Shown piece after piece: positions 52,856 through 64,000 of a DNA stretch of 64,000 nucleotides (position 1 is its first letter; every line of letters starts with the position of its first letter). This stretch comes from Chloroflexota bacterium (lineage in GTDB: Bacteria; Chloroflexota; Anaerolineae; Aggregatilineales; Phototrophicaceae). The DNA is taken from NCBI GenBank assembly GCA_013388745.1, contig JACAER010000016.1, forward strand, positions 62,001-126,000, in the 5' to 3' direction. The notes under the pieces are model-generated. The model had not been told where the DNA came from. It saw nothing but the letters and a program-made list of their open reading frames with translations, and searched no databases. The position numbers and the translations under genes were made by a program.

Positions 52856-54451
52856 TTATGTTGCGGTTTCTGGACTTGGCTCGTGCGCCAGCAGCAGCCC
52901 GTATTCTACGCTGTCTACCAGCGCCATCCAACTGGCTTTGATGATATTAGTCCCCGCGCCCACCGTACTCCAGCGCCCGTGCGCGTTTTGGGTGTCGATC
53001 AGCACGCGCGTGGTCGCGCCTGTGCCGTTCTGGCTTTCTAGGATACGGACTTTGTAATCGGCCAACTGGAAATCCGCCATCTGCGGATAACGCGGCACAA
53101 GCGCCTTTCTGAGCGCCAGGTCGAGCGCGTTCACCGGGCCATTGCCCTCGGCAGCGGTATGAACGATATCGCCGTCAATATCAACCTTGACCATGGCTTC
53201 GGCCAGATGGCCGCGCCCGCGCCGCTCCTCGACAATCACTGTAAAATCGATAAGCGTGAAAACCGGCTTGTAATCGGGGCGAGCGCGGTGCAGGCGAATG
53301 GCAACCGACGCTTCTGCGCCCTCGAAGACATAGCCTTCGTTTTCCAGCCGCTTGATCTCGTTGAGCACATGCAGTGCTTCTTCTTTGGAGACATCGAGGC
53401 CGAATTCTTCAGCTTTGCTGAGCAGATTGCCCTGTCCCGAAAGATCAGAAACCAGCACGCGCATTTCGTTGCCGACCAGTGTCGGGTTGATATGCTGATA
53501 GCTGTCAACGTGGCGGCGCATGGCGGCAACGTGGATGCCGCCCTTGTGCGCAAACGCGCTTTTGCCGACATACGCCAGATGGTTATCGGGGGCGAGATTG
53601 GCGATTTCGGCCACCGTGCGCGCCAGATGCGTCAGCCGTTTGAGCGCGCCTTCGGGGATACAGCGATAGCCCATTTTGAGTTCGAGATCCGGCACGATGC
53701 TGCACAAATTGGCGTTGCCGCAGCGTTCGCCATAGCCGTTAATCGTCCCCTGCACCTGCACAACACCTGCCTGCACAGCGACCAGCGTATTGGCAACCGC
53801 CAGCTCGCCGTCGTTGTGGGTGTGGATGCCAAGCGGCACACCGGGCAGGGCGCTGCGTACCATCTCCACGTAGCGCGCGACTTCCCAGGGCATGGTGCCG
53901 CCGTTGGTATCGCACAGCACGAGCATATCCGCGCCGCCTTCTACTGCCGCGCGCAGTGTGTCCAGCGCGTATTCCATATCGAGCTTTGTGCCATCGAAGA
54001 AATGTTCCGCGTCGTAGATGATTTCCTTGCCGAGGCTTTTCAGGTAGCGCAGGCTCTCGCGGATCATGCGCAGATTTTCTTCCGGCGTCGTTTGCAGCAC
54101 TTCGGTCACATGCAGCATCGAAGTCTTGCCGACGACAGTGACCACCGGGGTGCGGGCTTCGACCAGCGCGACGATATTGGGATCATCCACCGGATCACTG
54201 TTCTTGCGGCAGGTAGAGCCAAAGGCGGCGATTTTGGCGTGTTTCAGAGACAGCCCCTGCACCGCTTCAAAGTAGGCCGCGTCTTTGGGATTCGAACCCG
54301 GCCAACCGCCTTCGATATAGGCGACGCCAAATTCGTCCAGCATCTCGGTGATGCGCAGTTTATCGGCCACAGAAAGGGCAATGCCCTCGCGCTGCGTGCC
54401 ATCGCGCAGCGTCGTGTCGTAGATGGCGATGTGCTTGCGCCCGTTCGTCAT
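52856..54451 (-). CDS. cimA: (R)-citramalate synthase
   Basis: The 531 residues show the HMGL-like DRE-TIM barrel with IYDTTLRDGTQREGI, the metal-binding HTHNDGELAVAN and TINGYGERCGNANLCSIVP. It differs from LeuA by GWPGSNPKD, YDAEHFFDG and the GNANL form, all typical of CimA (TIGR00977 type). The C-terminal regulatory domain (from about 395) senses the end product isoleucine in the family. CimA condenses pyruvate with acetyl-CoA to citramalate; with LeuBCD this gives 2-oxobutyrate. It follows leuD by 14 bases. Confidence 0.94.
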   Translation of the reverse strand: MTNGRKHIAIYDTTLRDGTQREGIALSVADKLRITEMLDEFGVAYIEGGWPGSNPKDAAYFEAVQGLSLKHAKIAAFGSTCRKNSDPVDDPNIVALVEARTPVVTVVGKTSMLHVTEVLQTTPEENLRMIRESLRYLKSLGKEIIYDAEHFFDGTKLDMEYALDTLRAAVEGGADMLVLCDTNGGTMPWEVARYVEMVRSALPGVPLGIHTHNDGELAVANTLVAVQAGVVQVQGTINGYGERCGNANLCSIVPDLELKMGYRCIPEGALKRLTHLARTVAEIANLAPDNHLAYVGKSAFAHKGGIHVAAMRRHVDSYQHINPTLVGNEMRVLVSDLSGQGNLLSKAEEFGLDVSKEEALHVLNEIKRLENEGYVFEGAEASVAIRLHRARPDYKPVFTLIDFTVIVEERRGRGHLAEAMVKVDIDGDIVHTAAEGNGPVNALDLALRKALVPRYPQMADFQLADYKVRILESQNGTGATTRVLIDTQNAHGRWSTVGAGTNIIKASWMALVDSVEYGLLLAHEPSPETAT

Positions 54452-54465
54452 GCGTTCCCCCTTGT

Positions 54466-55074
54466 TTAGACGCGCGTCGTAACACGCGGCGTATGGTTTG
54501 TTTCATACGCGGCGATCTGCGCGTCAAGATTCATCAGATAACCGAGTTGGTCAACACCTTGCAGCAGGCATTCTTTGGAAAAGCCGTCGATAGGGAAATT
54601 GACCGCGCGGCCATCGGGTAGTACCAGCGTTTGTGTTTCCAGATCGACCCTGACCTGCGACTGCGGGTCTTCCTGCGCCAAACTGATGAGCTGGCGGTGG
54701 GTTTCTTCGTCCACGATGATCGGCAGCAGGCCATTTTTGAGCGCATTGTTCTTGAAGATGTCAGCAAAATAGGTGCTGATGACTGCTTTGAAGCCCGCGC
54801 CCAGCAGCGCCCACGGGGCGTGCTCGCGCGAACTACCGCAGCCAAAATTATGGCCGCCGATCAAGACCTGCGCGTGCTGATACTGCGGGTCATTCAACAC
54901 AAAATCGGCTTTGGGCGAGCCGTCAGCGTTGTAGCGCCAATCGGCAAAACAGGCGGCCCCCAGACCGAGTTTATCGGTTACTTTGAGGTAGCGCGCGGGG
55001 ATGATCTGGTCGGTGTCGATGTCGTTGATGGGGACAGCGACCATGCTGCCTGCGAAAGGCTTAAAAGCTTCCAT
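54466..55074 (-). CDS. leuD: 3-isopropylmalate dehydratase small subunit
   Basis: The 202 residues contain the small-subunit swivel-domain signatures VPINDIDTDQIIPARYLK near the N-terminus and GHNFGCGSSREHAPWAL. With LeuC it isomerises 2-isopropylmalate to 3-isopropylmalate (and citramalate to 3-methylmalate). The start lies 6 bases after the leuC stop. Confidence 0.97.
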   Translation of the reverse strand: MEAFKPFAGSMVAVPINDIDTDQIIPARYLKVTDKLGLGAACFADWRYNADGSPKADFVLNDPQYQHAQVLIGGHNFGCGSSREHAPWALLGAGFKAVISTYFADIFKNNALKNGLLPIIVDEETHRQLISLAQEDPQSQVRVDLETQTLVLPDGRAVNFPIDGFSKECLLQGVDQLGYLMNLDAQIAAYETNHTPRVTTRV

Positions 55075-55080
55075 GATGTG

Positions 55081-56517
<1,437 letters not shown>

Positions 56518-56534
56518 GCGTTTTCCTCTGTAAG

Positions 56535-56592
56535 CTGCAATCAATTAGGTTCCGATGAATCTCACCGCCGGTAAAGCGGTGCGGAAACAGGT
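56535..56592 (-). other. Intercistronic stem-loop between leuA and leuC
   Basis: CACCGC-TTTACCG-GCGGTG on the minus strand is flanked by TTCCG and CGGAA, forming a two-step stem between the leuA stop (56592) and the leuC ribosome-binding site. No U-run follows; it may control mRNA processing. Confidence 0.4.
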
Positions 56593-58199
56593 TAATCCGT
56601 GCCGCTGGCGACATTGACCGTCGCCGCTTCGCCTTCGGGCGCGCGGCCAATGCCCATCGCGGCGACCATGCGGTTGACCGCCGCCAGATATGCCTTGACG
56701 CTGGCGACAATCACGTCGGCGTCCGCGCCGTAGCCGCCGAAAGTGCGCTGGCCATCAGGCGATTCAATGCGCACCGTGACTTCGCCCAGGGCGGAAATGC
56801 CTTCGGTGACACTGTGAACGCTGTATTCGATCAGCGTGTTCGGCGCTTTGATGATCGCGTCGATGGCACGATACGAAGCGTCTACCGGACCCACCCCAAC
56901 CGCCGCGTGAACAAAGGTCTCGCCATCGACATGCTGGACTTTGACCGTCGCGGTGGGCATTCCCATCGTGCCGCAGGTAACCTGAATGTCGGCAAGGGAA
57001 TAAATTTCGTCTGGACCATGAAATTCGTCGGCGATCAAGGCTTGCAGATCGGCGTCGGTGACCGTCTTTTTGGCGTCGGCCAGTTCCTTGAAGCGCGCGA
57101 ATACCTGATTCAGGGCGTCACCGTCGATGCTATAGCCCAACTCCTGCAAACGTACCTTGAGCGCATGGCGTCCGCTGTGCTTCCCCAACACCAGCTTGCT
57201 CTGCGTCAGGCCGACGGTTTCGGGCGTCATGATTTCATACGTAGCCGCGTTTTTCAACATGCCGTCCTGATGAATGCCGGCCTCATGGGCAAAAGCGTTG
57301 GCGCCGACGATGGCTTTGTTGGGCTGCACATGCATCCCGGTGTAGTTGCTGACCATGCGGCTGGTCTTCATGATTTCGCGCGTGTTAATGTTGGTGTGGA
57401 GATTGTAATACTGTGGGCGCGTCTGGATCGCCATAACGACCTCTTCCAGACTGGTGTTGCCCGCGCGTTCGCCGATGCCGTTGATGGTGACTTCGACCTG
57501 CCGCGCGCCCGCCAGCACCCCCGCCAGCGTATTGGCGGTCGCCAGCCCCAGATCGTTGTGGCAGTGTACCGACCAGATGACGCCGCTGCCGACGCCCGCG
57601 CCGGGCGTTTCGGCCACCAGCGTCGCCACGAGTTCGTACCATTCCTGCGGCATGACGTAACCGACAGTGTCGGGGATATTGAGCGTGGTCGCGCCGCATT
57701 CGACCGCCAGCGCGCAGACTTCGATCAGGAATTTGGGGTCAGTGCGTCCGGCGTCCATCGGGCTGAATTCGACATCAGCGCACAGGCTGCGCGCCAGTGT
57801 CACCGACTGGCGAATGACTTCCAGCGCCTTCTGGCGCGTGATACCTGTCTGGTATTTCAGATGAATATCAGATGTGCCCAGAAAGGTGTGGATGCGCGGC
57901 TTTTGCGCCAGCTTGACGCCTTCCCAACAGGTGACAATGTCTTTTTCGACGGCGCGCGCCAACCCGGCAATGATCGGGCCATCGGCGCTGCCGACTTCGC
58001 GGGCGATGCGCTGCACCGCCGCCAGATCATCGGGGGAGGCCGCGGGAAAACCGGCTTCGATGATGTCTACGCCCAGATGTGCCAGTTGACGGGCGATCTC
58101 CAGCTTTTCGGCGCTGTTCATGGTGCAGCCAGGGCTTTGTTCCCCGTCGCGCAGTGTGGTATCGAAAATTCTGACCAGATTGTTGTCTACGGTTGCCAT
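56592..58199 (-). CDS. leuA: 2-isopropylmalate synthase
   Basis: The 535 residues start [17 protein letters not shown] and contain [39 protein letters not shown], and the C-terminal leucine-feedback domain (from about 400: [40 protein letters not shown]). It condenses acetyl-CoA with 2-oxoisovalerate, the first committed step to leucine. Its ribosome-binding site AAAGGA is paired in a hairpin with an upstream sequence, and an overlapping small ORF may couple its translation. Confidence 0.97.
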
Positions 58200-58270
58200 T
58201 TGGGGGTGATCCTTTCTTGATAACTTTTAGCGCGATTCGGTCTGAGGTGGCTAAGGCCATCATCTGCCAA
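58187..58270 (-). CDS. Possible 27-residue upstream ORF overlapping the leuA start
   Basis: A TTG at 58270 opens a 27-codon ORF (start [20 protein letters not shown]) that ends with TAG at 58189-58187, 9 bases inside leuA. AAGGGGGTGATT directly upstream is a near-perfect match to the anti-SD complement. If translated, ribosomes would melt the hairpin that hides the leuA SD. Whether it is translated is unknown. Confidence 0.35.
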
Positions 58271-58283
58271 AAGAATCACCCCC
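58202..58283 (-). promoter_or_regulatory. Hairpin sequestering the leuA Shine-Dalgarno
   Basis: On the minus strand GGGGGTGATTCTTT (58283-58270) pairs with AAAGGATCACCCCC (58215-58202) over 14 positions with one U-G. The second arm holds the leuA SD (AAAGGA); the first holds an SD-like sequence for the 27-codon ORF. Within the loop, GATGGC-CTTA-GCCACC makes a smaller stem. Confidence 0.6.
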
Positions 58284-58302
58284 TTTTACAACTACGTTGT
58301 CG

Positions 58303-58416
58303 TCATCCATGATGTGTCAACCTCAGGATCATCCATTCGATATCAAAGTACTGATCGCCCACCCGGATATAGCGCGGGTCGATATCATCGGCACTCAGAA
58401 CGCGCACTGCGACCAT
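58303..58416 (-). CDS. Possible small protein (37 aa) between ilvC and leuA
   Basis: The ATG at 58416 lies 10 bases after the ilvC stop, with AGGA eight bases upstream, and opens a 37-codon frame ending TGA at 58305-58303. The peptide (MVAVRVLSADDIDPRYIRVG, then a second part ending LTHHG) looks like a folded small protein with strand-like repeats rather than random sequence. No family was recognised. It could be a tiny operon member or part of a leader for leuA. Confidence 0.5.
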   Translation of the reverse strand: MVAVRVLSADDIDPRYIRVGDQYFDIEWMILRLTHHG

Positions 58417-58426
58417 CCTCGGCTTC

Positions 58427-59437
58427 CTAGTCCTGCTGCTTGATGCGCTTGGCCTTCAGGAAAGGCATCATATCGCGGAGCTGCGCGCCAACTTCTTCAA
58501 TCAGCAGACTGTGTTCGGCCTTGCGGCGCGGCAGGAAGTTCGGGCGGCCATTTTTGTTTTCGTCCACCCATTCATGGGCAAAAGAGCCGTCCTGAATGCT
58601 GCGCAGCACGCCCATCATATCTTCTTTGACCATGCCCTCGAAATGATCGCCGACTTTGTAGCCGCCGTACTCCGCTGTATCGCTGACGCTGTACCACATA
58701 TAGCTGAGACCGCCTTCGTAGAGCAGATCGACGATCAGCTTCAGTTCGTGCATACACTCGAAATAGGCGACTTCGGGCTGGTAGCCGGCTTTGACCAGCG
58801 TCTCAAAGGCCGCGCGGATGAGCGCCGTCACACCGCCGCACAAAATCACCTGCTCGCCGAACAAGTCAGTCTCGGTTTCTTCCTTAAACGACGTTTCGAT
58901 CACACCGGCGCGCGTGCAGCCGATGGCCTTGGCATAGGCCAGAGTTAGCGCTTTGGCGTGCCCGCTGGCGTCCTGCTGTACAGCCAGCAGGCCGGGCGTG
59001 CCGCCGCCATCTTTAAAAACTTCGCGCACGCGATGACCGGGCGCTTTGGGCGCGACCATAGTCACATCAACATTGGCCGGCGGCTTGATCTGCCCGAAGT
59101 GGATATTGAAGCCGTGCGCGAACATCAACATGCTGCCCGGTTTGAGGTAAGGCGCCACATCTTTTTCGTAGACCTCGGCCTGTTTGGTATCGGGAATCAA
59201 GATCATCACGACATCAGCCTGCTTGACCGCATCGGCGACGTTCAGCACTTTCAACCCGTCTCCCTCAGCTTTGGCTTTGCTCTTGCTGCCTTCGTGCAAG
59301 CCGACCACCACATGCACGCCGCTCTCTTTCATATTGAGTGCATGGGCGTGCCCCTGACTGCCATAGCCCACAACGGCCACTGTCTTGCCGTTCAGCAGCG
59401 ACAGATCCGCGTCTTTGTCATAATACATGACTGCCAT
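58427..59437 (-). CDS. ilvC: Ketol-acid reductoisomerase (class I)
   Basis: The 336 residues begin [20 protein letters not shown] with the NADPH-binding [12 protein letters not shown], then [14 protein letters not shown] and the knotted C-domain with metal ligands in [13 protein letters not shown] and [19 protein letters not shown]. It converts acetolactate and acetohydroxybutyrate to the dihydroxy-acids. The length is that of short (class I) enzymes. It follows ilvN across an 81-base gap with a strong hairpin. Confidence 0.97.
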
Positions 59438-59476
59438 TGAATAACTACTCCTGAGTTGATGAAAATCGTTAGTTAT

Positions 59477-59511
59477 AGTGACCGGCTGAGCTTTGCGCTC
59501 AGCCGATCACT
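59477..59511 (-). other. Strong intercistronic hairpin between ilvN and ilvC
   Basis: AGTGA-CGGCTGAGC and GCTCAGCCG-TCACT pair (one internal mismatch) around a very short loop, giving a 14-bp stem. No U-run follows on the minus strand (TATAACT). Likely an mRNA-processing or stability element within the operon. Confidence 0.6.
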
Positions 59512-59518
59512 CCGCACA

Positions 59519-60082
59519 CTAGTAGACTTGATGCGCGCTGCCGTTAGCGGCAACGGGAATCGCTGGCTCATATTCGGTGTCGAGGATGCGCGTGCCGCGT
59601 CCCATCGCCACGACGCCGGTACGCACAAGTTCGACAATACCGATCTTGGCGACTTCTTCGATAAAGCCCTCGACAACGTCTTCCTGCGCTGTGATTTCTG
59701 CGATCGCATAATGCGGGCCGATGTCCACGATACGCGCCGGAAACCGTTCGCAGAGCAACGTCAGGCCGTTGCGCGAATCCGCGTCGTCGGAACGCACTTT
59801 CACCAGCGCCAGGTCGCGGCTGACATGCGGTTCTGAGGATACGAGCTTCACGTCGATGACGTTGATCAGCTTGAACAAATTGGAAATCATCTTGCGGGCG
59901 TCGGTGCGTTTGGCGTCCACCACCAGCGTCATGCGCGAAATGTGTGACTTATACGTGCGCCCGACGGTTAAGCTGTCCACGTTGAAGTTGCGGCGGCGGA
60001 ACAGGCTGGCGACGCGGTTCAGCACGCCCGGCTTATTTTCTACCAGGGCGGCAATGGTGTGTTTGCTCGACTGCTGATCCAT
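59519..60082 (-). CDS. ilvN: Acetolactate synthase small (regulatory) subunit
   Basis: The 187 residues begin with an ACT domain (HTIAALVENKPGVLNRVASL, RRRNFNVDSLTVG). The C-terminal domain has VDIGPHYAIAEITAQEDVVE and ends SAHQVY. It binds valine for feedback control of IlvB. Start at 60082, four bases after the ilvB stop at 60087. Confidence 0.96.
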   Translation of the reverse strand: MDQQSSKHTIAALVENKPGVLNRVASLFRRRNFNVDSLTVGRTYKSHISRMTLVVDAKRTDARKMISNLFKLINVIDVKLVSSEPHVSRDLALVKVRSDDADSRNGLTLLCERFPARIVDIGPHYAIAEITAQEDVVEGFIEEVAKIGIVELVRTGVVAMGRGTRILDTEYEPAIPVAANGSAHQVY

Positions 60083-60086
60083 ACGA

Positions 60087-61787
60087 TTACTTCCTCTCGT
60101 TCGGTTTCGGGCGGCGGATCATGGCGTGCAGGTCAGCGCCTGCCGGCACCATCGGATAGACCATTTCTTCTTTTTCGACCACGAATTCCAGCAGCACGGC
60201 TGTCGGCTGGCTGCGCGCGAATTTCACCGCGTCTTCGATCTGCTCGCGGCGGGTAACACGCATATTGGGCATCCCGAAGGCATCTGCCAGCTTGCAGAAA
60301 TCCGGGCTGAACATCGGCGTCGAATTGTAGCGGCTTTCGTGGAACAGTTCCTGCCACTGGCGCACCATGCCGAGAAAACCGTTGTTAATCACGGCGATAT
60401 TGATCTTGATGTTTTCCTGCATGGCCGTCGCCAGTTCGCACATCGTCATCTGGAAACCGCCGTCGCCCACAATGGCCCAGATTTCTTCGTCTGGTCTGCC
60501 GAACTTCGCGCCGATGGCCGCCGGCACACCGAAGCCCATCGTGCCCAGCCCACCGCTGGTAATCATCGTCGCTGGGCGCTGGTGCGGGTAGTACTGCGCT
60601 TCGAGCATCTGGTGCTGGCCGACATCCGTCACCGTCACGGCATTGCCACCGGTGTATTTCCACAGATCATTCATCACCTGCGCGCCTAGCAGCTTATCAC
60701 CTTCGTAGGTTTTGAGGATATCGCGTTCGTCGGAGTCCTCGTCCCAATCGCGGATGCGGTTCAGCCACTCGGCGTGCTGCACAGACTTGACGCCGGGGAG
60801 AATCTGCCGCAGCACAGTCTTCAGATCGCCGGCGATGCCGACATCGACTTTCACGTTTTTGTTGATCTCTGAAGGATCAATATCAACGTGAATCTTGCGC
60901 GAATTGGGCGAATAGGTCTTCAGGTTGCCCGTCACGCGATCGTCGAAGCGCATCCCCAGCGCGATGAGCAGGTCTGCTTCCTGAATGGCATTGTTAGAAG
61001 CCGCCTCGCCGTGCATGCCCATCATGCCGATGACCAGCGGATGGCTTTCGGGCATTGCGCCCTTGCCCAGCAGCGTCAGTGCAACCGGCACCTGCGCGCG
61101 TTCCGCCAGTTCCTGCAATTCCTGCGTCGCGCCGGACATCACGACACCGTGCCCGGCCAGAATCACCGGGCGCTGCGCCTGTTGGATGAGTTCGAGCACC
61201 GCTTCGACCTGGGCTTCAGTGGCGCTGCTTGGCGGGCGATACCCCGGCAGGCGGATTTCGCCTTCGGGATACACAAATTCGATCTTCTGATTCTGAACGT
61301 CTTTGGGAATATCGACCAACACCGGGCCGGGACGGCCTGTGCGCGCGATATAGAAGGCCTCGCGAATAGTGTAGGCCAATTCTTCGATGCTGCCCACCAG
61401 ATAATTGTGCTTGGTGATCGGCAGCGTGATGCCAGTTACGTCGGTTTCCTGAAAAGCGTCTGTGCCGATGACCGGGCGCGGCACTTGCCCCGTTATGCAC
61501 ACAACTGGCGTCGAATCCATCATCGCGGTCGCGATACCCGTGACCAGATTGGTCGCGCCGGGGCCGCTGGTCGCGATCGCCACGCCGACTTTGCCTGTCG
61601 CGCGGGCGTAACCGTCGGCCATGTGGCACGCGCCCTGCTCATGGCGCACCAGCACGTGATGCAGTTGTGGGTATTTGCTCATCGCGTCATAGGTCGGCAG
61701 AATCGCGCCGCCCGGATAGCCGAACATGACCTCGACGCCTTCGCGCAGCAGGCATTCCAGAATAATTTCAGCGCCACTCAATAACAT
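60087..61787 (-). CDS. ilvB: Acetolactate synthase large (catalytic) subunit
   Basis: The 566 residues start SGAEIILECLLREGVEVMFG, then the catalytic Glu in LVRHEQGACHMADGYARATG, the FAD-binding middle and the thiamine-diphosphate motif GDGGFQMTMCELATAM up to NNGFLGMVRQWQELF. The enzyme joins two pyruvates, or pyruvate and 2-oxobutyrate, to start valine/leucine and isoleucine synthesis. It follows ilvE by 18 bases. Confidence 0.97.
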   Translation of the reverse strand: MLLSGAEIILECLLREGVEVMFGYPGGAILPTYDAMSKYPQLHHVLVRHEQGACHMADGYARATGKVGVAIATSGPGATNLVTGIATAMMDSTPVVCITGQVPRPVIGTDAFQETDVTGITLPITKHNYLVGSIEELAYTIREAFYIARTGRPGPVLVDIPKDVQNQKIEFVYPEGEIRLPGYRPPSSATEAQVEAVLELIQQAQRPVILAGHGVVMSGATQELQELAERAQVPVALTLLGKGAMPESHPLVIGMMGMHGEAASNNAIQEADLLIALGMRFDDRVTGNLKTYSPNSRKIHVDIDPSEINKNVKVDVGIAGDLKTVLRQILPGVKSVQHAEWLNRIRDWDEDSDERDILKTYEGDKLLGAQVMNDLWKYTGGNAVTVTDVGQHQMLEAQYYPHQRPATMITSGGLGTMGFGVPAAIGAKFGRPDEEIWAIVGDGGFQMTMCELATAMQENIKINIAVINNGFLGMVRQWQELFHESRYNSTPMFSPDFCKLADAFGMPNMRVTRREQIEDAVKFARSQPTAVLLEFVVEKEEMVYPMVPAGADLHAMIRRPKPNERK

Positions 61788-61805
61788 ACTGTATGCTCCT
61801 CGCCT

Positions 61806-62738
61806 CTAATCCGCAGCTTCGGGTTGTCTCACCAGAGTCAGCCAGCCATAGGGATCGGCTTTCTGTCCTGAGGTAATGGCAAAAAACGCTTCTTGCACCG
61901 CTTTGGTAATGGTGCCGGGTTTCCCCGCCCCAACCGGCTGGCGGTCAACCGACCGAATCGGCGTAATTTCCGCGGCTGTACCCGTGAAAAACATTTCGTC
62001 CGCGATGTACAGCATCTCGCGCGCGATCGGTTCGTAGCGGATGCTGTAGCCCAGATCGCGCAGGATGGTCAGCGCGCTGTCGCGAGTGACGCCGCTCAAA
62101 ATTGACTGCCAGACACCCGGTGTGTACACCACCTCATCAATAATAACGAACAGATTTTCGCCCGCGCCTTCGCTTACATAACCGTTGATGTCCAGCGCGA
62201 TGCCTTCGGCAAAGCCATTGTCATGCGCTTCCATGCTGACAAATTGGCTGTTGATATACTGCCCGCCGATTTTTGCCAGCGAAGCAAAGGTATCGGGCGC
62301 CATACGCCGCCACGAACTGACCTGCACATCAACACCGTTGTCGATGGCTTCGCTGCCGAGATACCGTCCCCACTCCATGGTAAAGATCACCATCTCTACA
62401 GGGTTTTTGCGCCCTTCCAGCCCGATAGCGCCCGCACCGCGATACACCAGAGGACGCACATAACAGGCTTCGTGCTTGTTGCGCCGGATCGTCTCGACAA
62501 TCGCGCTGTTGATATCGTTCTCGCTGTAGGGCAGTTCAAGGCGCGCGATCTTGCAGGAATTGATGAGGCGGCGGGTGTGCGGCTGCATACGGAACACTGC
62601 CGGTCCCTGTGGCGTCGCGTAGGCACGGATGCCTTCAAAGACGCTGGAGCCATAGTGCAGCGCGTGCGTGGTCACATGCACGGTTGCCTCTTCCCACTTA
62701 ATGAACTGCCCGTTTCTCCAAATAAACTCAGATGGCAT
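61806..62738 (-). CDS. ilvE: Branched-chain amino acid aminotransferase
   Basis: The 310 residues of a class IV aminotransferase start FIWRNGQFIKWEEATVHV, with RPLVYRGAGAIGLEG, the PLP-lysine region FASLAKIGGQYINSQFVSM and GYVSEGAGENLFVI, and TRDSALTILRDLGY near the C-terminus. It makes Leu, Ile and Val from their oxo-acids with glutamate. GGAGA precedes the ATG. It is the second ORF after the attenuator. Confidence 0.96.
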   Translation of the reverse strand: MPSEFIWRNGQFIKWEEATVHVTTHALHYGSSVFEGIRAYATPQGPAVFRMQPHTRRLINSCKIARLELPYSENDINSAIVETIRRNKHEACYVRPLVYRGAGAIGLEGRKNPVEMVIFTMEWGRYLGSEAIDNGVDVQVSSWRRMAPDTFASLAKIGGQYINSQFVSMEAHDNGFAEGIALDINGYVSEGAGENLFVIIDEVVYTPGVWQSILSGVTRDSALTILRDLGYSIRYEPIAREMLYIADEMFFTGTAAEITPIRSVDRQPVGAGKPGTITKAVQEAFFAITSGQKADPYGWLTLVRQPEAAD

Positions 62739-62782: not shown

Positions 62783-62974
62783 CTAATCTTCGGGATTGTA
62801 GATATCGGCAAGCGCGTCGTGTGTCGGCGAAAGGGTCTCGCTGTCATAAAAGCGCGGCAGGGGCTGCTCATCCTGCGGCGCTGCCACAGCCTCAGCCGCC
62901 TGTTGATAAGGTTCCGTCCAGGGGCTGGTGCTGTATTCGGCATAAACGTAGCCATTATTTTTCTGCGGTGCCAT
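62783..62974 (-). CDS. Hypothetical small protein, first gene after the attenuator (63 aa)
   Basis: The ATG at 62974 has AGGAG nine bases upstream, a good site. The sequence is polar and rich in Pro, Tyr, Asp and Glu (MAPQKNNGYVYAEYSTSPWT, later LPRFYDSETLSPTHDALA), probably extended or disordered. No family was recognised. It lies 27 bases after the attenuator terminator and 44 bases before ilvE, so it is co-regulated with the branched-chain genes. Confidence 0.7.
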   Translation of the reverse strand: MAPQKNNGYVYAEYSTSPWTEPYQQAAEAVAAPQDEQPLPRFYDSETLSPTHDALADIYNPED

Positions 62975-63000: not shown

Positions 63001-63029
63001 AAAACAGCCCCCGGCTTGGGGGCTGTTTT
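63001..63029 (-). terminator. Attenuator terminator of the ilv-leu operon
   Basis: AAAACAGCCCCC and GGGGGCTGTTTT form a 12-bp stem around AAGCC, ending in UUUUCGUUU on the minus strand. It lies between the leader ORF and the first structural gene. Its loop and 5' arm are also the second partner of the antiterminator, so terminator and antiterminator exclude each other. Confidence 0.9.
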
Positions 63030-63074
63030 GTTGCAACCGTGACTGTGATTTACGTCCGCGCGCCACCCAAGCCG
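63008..63074 (-). promoter_or_regulatory. Antiterminator pairing of the ilv-leu attenuator
   Basis: On the minus strand CGGCUUGGG (63074-63066), placed directly after the leader UAA, pairs perfectly with CCCAAGCCG (63020-63012) in the terminator. A bulged U and GGC/GCC extend it to 12 bp. A ribosome at the leader stop would cover the first arm and let the terminator form; a ribosome stalled earlier on Leu/Ile/Val codons would leave it free, so transcription continues. Confidence 0.8.
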
Positions 63075-63143
63075 TTATAACCCGCCGCTAAGGACGAGTA
63101 CAATAACGCTAATAAGGATGAGGCCGAACGACAACTTTTTCAT
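63075..63143 (-). CDS. Branched-chain amino-acid-rich leader peptide (22 aa)
   Basis: From the ATG at 63143 to the TAA at 63077-63075, 22 codons begin MKKLSFGLILISVIVLVLSG. Six Leu, three Ile and three Val make 12 of 22 residues; between codons 8 and 18, ten of eleven are branched-chain. This is the make-up of ilv/leu attenuator leader peptides. The SD is weak (GUGGA). The stop codon is adjacent to the antiterminator arm. A tiny membrane peptide is the alternative reading, but the setting favours a leader. Confidence 0.82.
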   Translation of the reverse strand: MKKLSFGLILISVIVLVLSGGL

Positions 63144-63175
63144 GATGATCTGTCCACATCTCTGAACTGCTGCAT

Positions 63176-63204
63176 AGCGTAACGTGCTTTAAAAAGTCTG
63201 TCAA
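63176..63204 (-). promoter_or_regulatory. Promoter of the ilv-leu operon
   Basis: On the minus strand TTGACA (63204-63199), a 17-base spacer and TACGCT (63181-63176) place transcription near 63169, about 26 bases before the leader ATG and about 170 bases before the end of the attenuator. The -35 is perfect; the -10 is fair. Confidence 0.7.
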
Positions 63205-63335: not shown

Positions 63336-64000
63336 CTATCTGGAGAGCAGCGCTTTTGCCGCTTCGATCTGCTGCGCGACCGCAGAAGGCGCGGTGCCGC
63401 CCGCAGCGCTGCGGCGGGCTACTGCGGCGTCAAAATCAAACACTTCCCGCACATCTTCGGCGAACAACGGCGAAAGCTGGCGCAGCGAATCCAGCGGCAG
63501 TTGTGAAAGGCGCGCCGCAGCCGCCTGCGCCGCGCGGACAGCCTGCCCGACCACATGATGCGCTTGGCGGAAGGGCAGCCCGTTTTTCACCAGATAATCG
63601 GCCAGATCCGTCGCCAGAAGATCATCGCCCAGGGCCGCGCGCATTTTTTCGGCGTCGAGCTTCAGCGTGCGGATCACAGCGGTCAAAACGGGCAGCAGCA
63701 GCTTCACCGTATCCACCGCGTCGAAGAGCGCTTCTTTGTCTTCCTGCAAATCTTTGTTGTAGCCGCTGGGCAAGCCTTTAAGCGTGGTCATCAGCCCCGA
63801 CAAATGACCGATTAAACGCCCGCTTTTGCCCCGCGCCAATTCCAGCGGATCGGGGTTGCGCTTCTGCGGCATCAGGCTGGAACCGGTGCTGTAGCGATCA
63901 TCCAGGGCAATAAAGCCGAACAACGGATTGCTGTAGATGATGACATCCTCCGCCAGACGGCTGAGATGTGTGCCGGCCAGCGCCAGCGCAAATAAGGTCT
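63336..64000 (-). CDS. argH: Argininosuccinate lyase, C-terminal part (runs off the right edge)
   Basis: The visible part (about 221 residues) reads from LFALALAGTHLSRLAEDVII at the edge, through the fumarase/lyase signature GSSLMPQKRNPDPLELARGK with the catalytic Ser, to the C-terminal domain (GLPFRQAHHVVGQAVRAAQA) and the stop at 63336. ArgH splits argininosuccinate to arginine and fumarate. The N-terminal half is outside the window. The gap to the ilv-leu promoter (63205-63335) is AT-rich and holds no gene. Confidence 0.96.
   Translation of the reverse strand, partial: TLFALALAGTHLSRLAEDVIIYSNPLFGFIALDDRYSTGSSLMPQKRNPDPLELARGKSGRLIGHLSGLMTTLKGLPSGYNKDLQEDKEALFDAVDTVKLLLPVLTAVIRTLKLDAEKMRAALGDDLLATDLADYLVKNGLPFRQAHHVVGQAVRAAQAAAARLSQLPLDSLRQLSPLFAEDVREVFDFDAAVARRSAAGGTAPSAVAQQIEAAKALLSR

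Follow-up and report, generated by a model that had tools for sequence, protein, structure and literature searches.

A predicted ribosome-mediated attenuator upstream of the ilv-leu-cimA operon in a Chloroflexota genome

INTRODUCTION

How does a Chloroflexota bacterium adjust the transcription of its branched-chain amino acid genes? The question is raised by a 64 kb window, the stretch of 64,000 nucleotides analysed here (contig JACAER010000016.1, labelled C53), which lies within a 4.57 Mb genome of 69 contigs that is ~89% complete. On the minus strand of the window an ilv-leu-cimA gene cluster is preceded by a short element, which a first-pass annotation, made from the letters alone, had read as a leader-peptide attenuator. 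Our analysis agrees with that reading: the element is very probably a ribosome-mediated transcription attenuator, predicted to tune the operon to the supply of charged branched-chain tRNAs. The basis of this assignment is formed by the parts of the element, their conservation, covariation, the near-constant spacing between arm and codons, and the recurrence of leader and terminator with the matching amino acid.

RESULTS

Parts of the element in the window

The element lies on the minus strand between argH (visual reading; it ends at 63336) and ilvE, which starts at 62738. Its parts (Table 1) were found in the order and at the places given by the first-pass annotation: promoter, 22-codon open reading frame (ORF) with 12 Ile, Leu or Val (I/L/V) codons, antiterminator arm and 12-bp terminator. 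Ten of the eleven codons from 8 to 18 specify I/L/V, and no other ORF of 10-45 codons on either strand of the 64 kb has ten such codons among eleven consecutive ones. The arm, CGGCUUGGG, begins at the base right after the UAA, 15 nt from the last control codon. Re-reading the sequence also recovered the proposed antiterminator. Its 3′ side, in the terminator 5′ arm and loop, is the exact complement of the arm, and the GCC extends the helix to 12 bp with one bulged U. The terminator stands between the leader and the first gene, ilvE, which is 336 nt away from the leader stop.

The -10 box of the predicted promoter is weak (3 of 6 bases of TATAAT). A TTGAC box lies at most 130 nt upstream of all 34 leaders of the window's family, whereas shuffled upstreams have a mean of 4.2 in 34, and the best-scoring spacer is 17 bases in 32 of these leaders and 16 in two. 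From the predicted start near 63170 the terminated RNA would be ~170 nt long.

Folded by itself, the terminator has an energy of -21.0 kcal/mol (z -5.0). The segment 63073-63012, which is without the terminator 3′ arm, folds as the antiterminator (-25.3 kcal/mol); once the 3′ arm is included, the minimum-energy fold is the terminator (-30). By energy rules only, the predicted folding is that of a co-transcriptional switch.

Table 1. Features of the attenuator element and of the downstream genes (window coordinates)
Feature	Position	Strand	Description
Promoter (predicted sigma-70)	63176..63204	minus	-35 TTGACA 63204-63199, 17-base spacer, -10 TACGCT 63181-63176
Leader ORF	63075..63143	minus	MKKLSFGLILISVIVLVLSGGL; 22 codons + TAA (stop 63077-63075)
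Antiterminator 5′ arm	63062..63074	minus	CGGCTTGGG 63074-63066, bulged T 63065, GGC 63064-63062
Antiterminator 3′ side	63012..63023	minus	GCC 63023-63021 and CCCAAGCCG 63020-63012; overlaps terminator 5′ arm and loop
Intrinsic terminator	63001..63029	minus	12 bp; 5′ arm AAAACAGCCCCC 63029-63018, loop AAGCC 63017-63013, 3′ arm GGGGGCTGTTTT 63012-63001
63-aa ORF	62783..62974	minus	MAPQKNNGYVYAEYSTSPWTEPYQQ...; between terminator and ilvE
ilvE	61806..62738	minus	NCBIfam branched-chain amino acid transaminase, 5.8e-124; first enzyme gene of the operon
ilvB	61787-60087	minus	NCBIfam
ilvN	60082-59519	minus	NCBIfam
ilvC	59437-58427	minus	NCBIfam
leuA	58199-56592	minus	NCBIfam
leuC	56544-55081	minus	NCBIfam
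leuD	55074-54466	minus	assigned by eye
cimA	54451-52856	minus	NCBIfam

Occurrence in other genomes

Visual reading revealed an I/L/V-rich leader ORF, the arm and then the terminator upstream of ilvE in the window and in all 29 relatives examined first. Together with the covariation described below, this supports the first-pass annotation on the comparison with close relatives that it had named as able to refute its reading.

Two models were used for searching. The covariance model R1 was derived from 34 leaders of the family and includes the leader codons. Because R1 carries these codons, R2 was built from arm and terminator alone (74 sequences). The window's site is among the rows of both models, which therefore match it by construction; it is the only R1 and the only R2 match at E ≤0.01 in the 4.57 Mb genome. 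Genome searches were done at E ≤0.01 in samples of the order, class and phylum, which overlap. In the order, 115 of 154 genomes had an R1 match; of the 120 genomes whose leaders had not gone into the model, 81 did. The window's family accounts for 92 of the 115 (98 genomes searched) and the other families for 23 (56 searched). The match was single in 112 of the 115; G065, G069 and G079 had two. Of 396 genomes sampled from the class, 97 had an R1 match, as had 31 of 400 from the phylum.

The ilvE protein was found in 60 of 61 genomes searched. R2 matched 47 genomes in a set of 61. Where R1 had a site (43 genomes), the best R2 match fell on it in 41, for most of them by construction; R2 missed the sites of G019 and G035. 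R2 added I/L/V leaders before ilvB that R1 had missed in G048, G053 and G058. Twenty-eight R2 rows, one of them L037, lay beyond R1 sites. Inspection of 18 by eye gave eight plausible leaders (L195-L198, L201, L203, L205 and L206); the other ten appeared to be chance matches or were unclear.

Among 20 further stretches the full arrangement was present in L032, L034, L036 and L038, L037 had an I/L/V ORF and a terminator with a weak arm, and 15 were without the arrangement. L033 belongs to a family member whose leader stands elsewhere, before ilvB (L184), and in G047 (L035) the leader is ~2 kb further up, before ilvD (L174). Neither R1 nor R2 matched the genomes of L039-L042, which belong to family f8 (f8 and f3 denote families other than the window's) and have a 58-59% identical ilvE. 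The arrangement was not seen in L044-L050, upstream of ilvE-like genes of ~35% identity, or in L051, upstream of the second aminotransferase of the window's own genome; the stretch L043 was too short.

An exact-pattern scan of named genomes returned 38 stretches, of which 35 were metagenome-assembled genomes with an I/L/V leader. They are labelled Anaerolineae, Anaerolineaceae, Chloroflexi, Chloroflexota or Phototrophicales, and many coincide with genomes of the other samples. Two stretches were dropped: L052 (Omnitrophota) contains a palindromic CCCCCCAAGCTTGGGGGG repeat (1725-2117) that matches the pattern on both strands, and L076 (Coriobacteriaceae) is without a leader ORF. In L067 (Thermomicrobiales) an ORF near 1472, VVVVVLISLLLEGGDCCLGGER, with a matching arm/terminator pattern looks like an I/L/V leader.

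The genes behind 52 R1 loci, one of which (L184) is in the window's family, were read by eye. The leader preceded ilvD in 28 and ilvB in 22; L157 precedes another thiamine-type enzyme and L162 DAHP synthase.

Control codons and covariation

For comparison of the leaders we aligned the 104 R1 matches (E ≤0.05) found in 98 sources. Branched-chain codons, whose conservation the first-pass annotation had proposed to test, are conserved: 103 of the 104 leader ORFs have at least 8 I/L/V codons among 11 consecutive ones, and they do so in one frame only. The I/L/V fraction of the 11 control codons was 0.904 in frame, as against 0.375 and 0.008 in the other two frames (n=103). The sole exception, MKNNFAPKYYYYYYFGRIKVRLGESL, contains six Tyr codons and lies upstream of DAHP synthase. 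A hairpin before a T-rich stretch was placed by the search script in 104 of 104 matches.

The same two hairpins could in principle serve a tRNA- or protein-sensing element, such as a T-box or the site of an RNA-binding regulator. T-boxes, named by the first-pass annotation as the usual expectation for this kind of organism, were found in all 61 genomes searched (60 above the cutoff), the window's own included, but none matches at the ilv operon. The window contains no T-box (RF00230) match, and the conserved feature is codon identity in one frame rather than a folded sensor. We consider a sensing element of this kind extremely unlikely. Two T-box matches of the window's own genome were inspected. 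One, at C53:10290-10554, precedes a gene that by eye resembles trpE; the other, at C66:94640-94876, scores under the Rfam cutoff and precedes one that resembles pheS.

RNAalifold, applied to a MAFFT alignment of the 34 family leaders that was not fitted to a structure, picked the antiterminator helix with 8 pairs, 5 of them with double changes. In this alignment 94.9% of cells were paired (84.9 shuffled), 21 cells were double-changed (5.9 shuffled) and the covariation was 0.251 (0.082 shuffled); none of 500 shuffles was as high on any of the three measures. Shifting the partner by one column reduced pairing to 58-64%. In the 104-row alignment, which was fitted to the structure model, 95.3% of cells were paired (77.6 shuffled), 128 were double-changed (37.5 shuffled), covariation was 0.414 (0.109 shuffled), and all 8 helix pairs showed double changes. 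The shuffles of both alignments carry no correction for relatedness. CUUGGG/CCCAAG is replaced by GUUUGGG/CCCAAAC in L019 and L028 and by GCGGG/CCCGC in L026 and L027; other compensated forms are GCUGGGG/CCUCAGC with one G-U (L036), GGUUAGG/CCUAACC (L142, L146) and GCUGGGAG/CUCCCAGC (L173). For 83 of the 104 arms, mononucleotide-shuffled spacers reached the real pairing energy in ≤5% of trials.

These results bear on the view that only the terminator matters, as a constitutive partial terminator behind an I/L/V ORF that is an accident or encodes a small membrane peptide. By folding, the hairpin is a strong terminator, and short hydrophobic ORFs can be membrane peptides. However, the terminator 5′ arm and loop covary with the segment adjoining the ORF, each of the 34 family leaders has promoter-like boxes upstream, the element precedes ilvB or ilvD in other families, and versions coding for His, Arg or Tyr, which are not hydrophobic, exist as well. 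There is very little room left for a role of the terminator alone.

Leader translation might also act through coupling, reinitiation or Rho rather than through two hairpins. Reinitiation over short distances has been put forward as a way for leader ORFs to increase translation downstream (PMC4833913). In the window the distance from the leader stop to ilvE is not short, and the covarying pairing involves an intrinsic terminator, so that such a route is very improbable.

Spacing, translation and the proposed mechanism

The distance from the last I/L/V codon to the start of the arm had a median of 13.5 nt (interquartile range 12-16, n=104). The arm start ranged from -63 to +4 nt relative to the end of the stop codon; 51 arms started no earlier than the stop codon, and 53 within the ORF. 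The arm thus keeps a near-constant distance to the control codons while the stop codon moves.

The element combines clustered end-product codons, an intrinsic terminator, an antiterminator pairing that excludes it, and control codons so placed that stalling would leave the arm free. With ample charged tRNA the ribosome would reach the UAA beside the arm and cover the arm; the 12-bp terminator would form and transcription would stop. When Ile-, Leu- or Val-tRNA is short, the ribosome would stall in codons 8-18, at least 15 nt upstream of the arm. The free arm would then capture the terminator 5′ arm and loop on their emergence, and RNA polymerase would read on. In relatives whose stop codon lies 20-60 nt further on, a translating ribosome would have to cover the arm in passing. 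The proposal of the first-pass annotation that a ribosome at the stop hides the arm therefore suits the window's family, where such a ribosome would cover it, and cannot be extended to every relative.

What an untranslated leader does distinguishes this mechanism from the classical three- or four-segment attenuator, in which a segment of the ORF pairs with the arm when it is not translated and the default is termination. This design is the usual one in enterobacteria. The protector design is also that of Listeria Rli60, for which mutants of the start codon and of the ribosome-binding site are reported to lower ilvD transcription (PMC5864092). In 18 of the 104 leaders the pairing between ORF and arm was better than in 95% of shuffles, where ~5 were expected, so that a protector pairing may exist in a minority of relatives. 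The second leaders of tandem pairs in family f3 contain a strong hairpin within the ORF. In the window, however, no protector pairing of the four-segment (trp/Rli60) type was found: of the shuffled ORFs, 64% equal the real one in pairing with the arm. The first-pass annotation had described a design of only two mutually exclusive hairpins. The median over the 104 leaders was 24%, and RNAalifold placed no helix in the ORF part of the 34-leader alignment, which covers only the last ~12 codons. The classical design is on these grounds unlikely for the window. Since no protector segment was detected in its leader, the predicted default of the two-hairpin attenuator is readthrough in the absence of translation, the opposite of the super-attenuation of four-segment attenuators.

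Several observations weigh against attenuation by the ribosome as proposed here. A Shine-Dalgarno-like 4-mer at -18 to -5 is present in only 5 of the 34 family leaders and is absent at these positions from the window's leader, so that efficient translation of the leader is not assured. In 53 of 104 matches the ORF extends past the start of the arm, which may lie as much as 63 nt ahead of the end of the stop codon; a ribosome halted at the stop would leave part of such an arm uncovered, and the model has to call on a ribosome in motion. No more than 32 of the 104 arms had their own terminator among the best 5% of all terminators, although this single-partner swap test is weak because the core sequence is conserved. 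R1 contains leader codons, which biases its matches to I/L/V, and the 98 sources behind the 104 matches were chosen by hand, mostly because R1 or the exact pattern had already found them. Finally, 39 of the 154 genomes of the order are without an R1 match and some families of the order lack the element. R2 matched six of the 39 (G042, G048, G052, G053, G055 and G058), and the well-assembled f8 genomes G043, G049, G054 and G059 were missed by both models.

Leaders for other amino acids and tandem leaders

Upstream regions of ilvE, hisG, argC and the DAHP synthase gene were compared, using the best 30 loci per search (three of the searches listed 82, 63 and 69 places). The I/L/V leader test was positive for 28 of 30 ilvE upstreams and for none of 87 others. 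Of 27 hisG upstreams, 17 had an ORF with four or more His within nine codons, as against none of 90 upstreams of the other three genes, and the Tyr/Phe/Trp test gave 25 of 30 for DAHP synthase as against 5 of 87. A loose Arg codon test was rejected as unspecific: it scored 26 of 30 argC upstreams and 25 of 87 others (8 of 30 ilvE, 13 of 27 hisG, 4 of 30 DAHP synthase). The strict Arg test, in which the ORF has to end 55-300 nt before the gene, gave 19 of 30 and 2 of 87. This strict placement lowers ilvE to 17 of 30, because many ilvE leaders lie further up.

His-rich leaders (L215-L235; e.g. MTVHAHHQHHHHKTSIEETRW) are found with a terminator 50-100 nt before hisG in families f2, f3 and f8 and, in a weaker form, in f6; none was seen before hisG in the window's family, for which four loci were inspected (L239-L242). 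Arg-rich leaders of PRRRSRRP types (L245-L274), often with a terminator, precede argC; L249-L252 are examples from the window's family. The search for argC in the ~89% complete genome of the window itself found none, so the Arg leader could not be shown there. For sensing of Arg codons by a leader there is a precedent in Salmonella speF, which works by another route (PMC6386406). His and Arg leaders do occur in f8 genomes (L222, L224, L225, L269, L271 and L274). Tyr/Phe-rich leaders (YYYYYY, YYAYFTF; L275-L304) precede DAHP synthase in an order of small genomes outside the window's class. Their arm is often CGCTTGGGAG with CTCCCAAGC on the terminator side, the pairing often being CGCUUGGGAG against CUCCCAAGC, with compensating changes, for example GCCUGGGGG/CCCCCAGGC in L294. 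Arms that beat 95% of shuffled spacers numbered 22 of 24 for Tyr/Phe, 10 of 19 for Arg and 6 of 17 for His. Support for the arm/loop switch is accordingly good for Tyr/Phe and I/L/V, whereas the His and Arg data no more than suggest it.

In 12 of 12 f3 loci inspected by eye the first leader is followed, before ilvD, by another I/L/V leader that has a separate arm and terminator; R1 scored six of these second leaders at E ≤0.05. Their ORF holds a hairpin of the type CCTCCTTCTC...GAGAAGGAGG, in several with small changes, and has a long tail after the arm. Tandem attenuators before ilvD were noted in L135, L168-L173, L176, L177, L179, L185 and L186, and also in L203. A separate observation is a Cys/Met-rich leader (MMCACMMCC) with a terminator in L198 (~559-745; genome G016); the longest ORF downstream, ~470 nt on, looks like a thiosulfate sulfurtransferase.

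The downstream genes

The eight genes from ilvE to cimA (Table 1) are likely to form one operon (52856..62738). Seven of them each show a Shine-Dalgarno-like 4-mer within 20 nt (visual reading). In the leaders of many genomes 444 of 580 Leu codons are CTT or CTC, whereas the eight genes from ilvE to cimA in the window use CTG for 162 of 259. Biased codon use in attenuation leaders has been discussed before, and the rare-codon explanation was judged an oversimplification (PMC1183508). A tblastn comparison of the 63-aa ORF between terminator and ilvE with 34 other sequences gave matches at E <1e-3 in seven (L003, L004, L006, L011, L022, L025 and L038), with L007 at 0.002; in part of the family relatives of the type PTSPWTE...PTHDALS.YN were noted.

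DISCUSSION

The recurrence of leaders with different codons raises the question of a more general device. Chloroflexota may possess a phylum-wide toolkit in which a single switch with two states is re-coded: its arm, ~15 nt downstream of the control codons, would capture the terminator loop. The codons would serve at least four amino-acid groups: Ile/Leu/Val before ilvE, ilvB or ilvD, Tyr/Phe before DAHP synthase, His before hisG and Arg before argC. It would have no protector hairpin, would leave the genes on unless the ribosome finishes the leader, and would exist beside T-boxes in the same genomes. For this generalization we see as much reason for acceptance as for doubt. Most known cases of leader-peptide attenuation come from Proteobacteria and Actinobacteria, and from some Firmicutes. 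If the toolkit is real, it offers a simpler, two-hairpin switch with a movable stop codon, the codons being swapped to suit the pathway, including Arg before argC. It would suggest close coupling between ribosome and RNA polymerase in Chloroflexota, and regulons could be annotated in many uncultured genomes.

The first-pass annotation knew of no such leader in this group of organisms, and among the titles and abstract openings listed (at most 8-20 for a search) no Chloroflexota leader-peptide attenuator appeared, although single cases may have been mentioned earlier. Until they described a Firmicutes case of their own, the authors of a 2010 survey knew of no leader-peptide attenuation outside Proteobacteria and Actinobacteria, setting aside the atypical ermC (PMC2965389). 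T-boxes were described in two Dehalococcoides (PMC2494555) and are known in the phylum, and amino-acid attenuator motifs were suggested to have originated in gammaproteobacteria (PMC3766115). At the window's element no Rfam family reached its gathering score; the best sub-threshold hit was Phe_leader with 25.7 bits (cutoff 55). No Rfam leader family matched at E ≤0.1 in 16 loci, and in 12 further loci compared with the Rfam leaders only L233 touched His_leader, with 34.4 bits (cutoff 49).

By description, not by sequence, the element can be likened to the enterobacterial ilvGMEDA, ilvBN and leu attenuators, with which it shares the logic of stalling at branched-chain codons. The enterobacterial leaders are of the four-segment type with protector pairing. 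They are named as attenuators in PMC1183508. Listeria Rli60 has a branched-chain leader peptide and a terminator/antiterminator before an ilv-leu operon, as in the window, and was tested by mutation (PMC5864092); its untranslated leader is super-attenuated, whereas readthrough is predicted for the window, where no protector segment was found.

The leader of Corynebacterium ilvBNC, or ilvB-II motif, resembles the element, again by description and not by sequence, in having a short ORF rich in branched-chain codons, a terminator and an antiterminator that pairs into the terminator before a branched-chain operon (PMC11857589, PMC10272879). The Corynebacterium glutamicum model differs in its three hairpins and 15-residue leader and belongs to another phylum (same sources). 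The ilvB-OMG motif contains an upstream ORF rich in branched-chain amino acids and Thr that was suggested to be an attenuator (PMC10272879). By description its threonine enrichment and its own structure set it apart, and it may overlap some of the Chloroflexota cases. Candidate leaders of actinobacterial ilvB likewise have runs of I/L/V codons and a candidate terminator (PMC1262725). In those leaders the terminator is overlapped by the runs of codons, and the source describes how they regulate as unclear, whereas in the window a separate arm that covaries with the terminator lies outside it.
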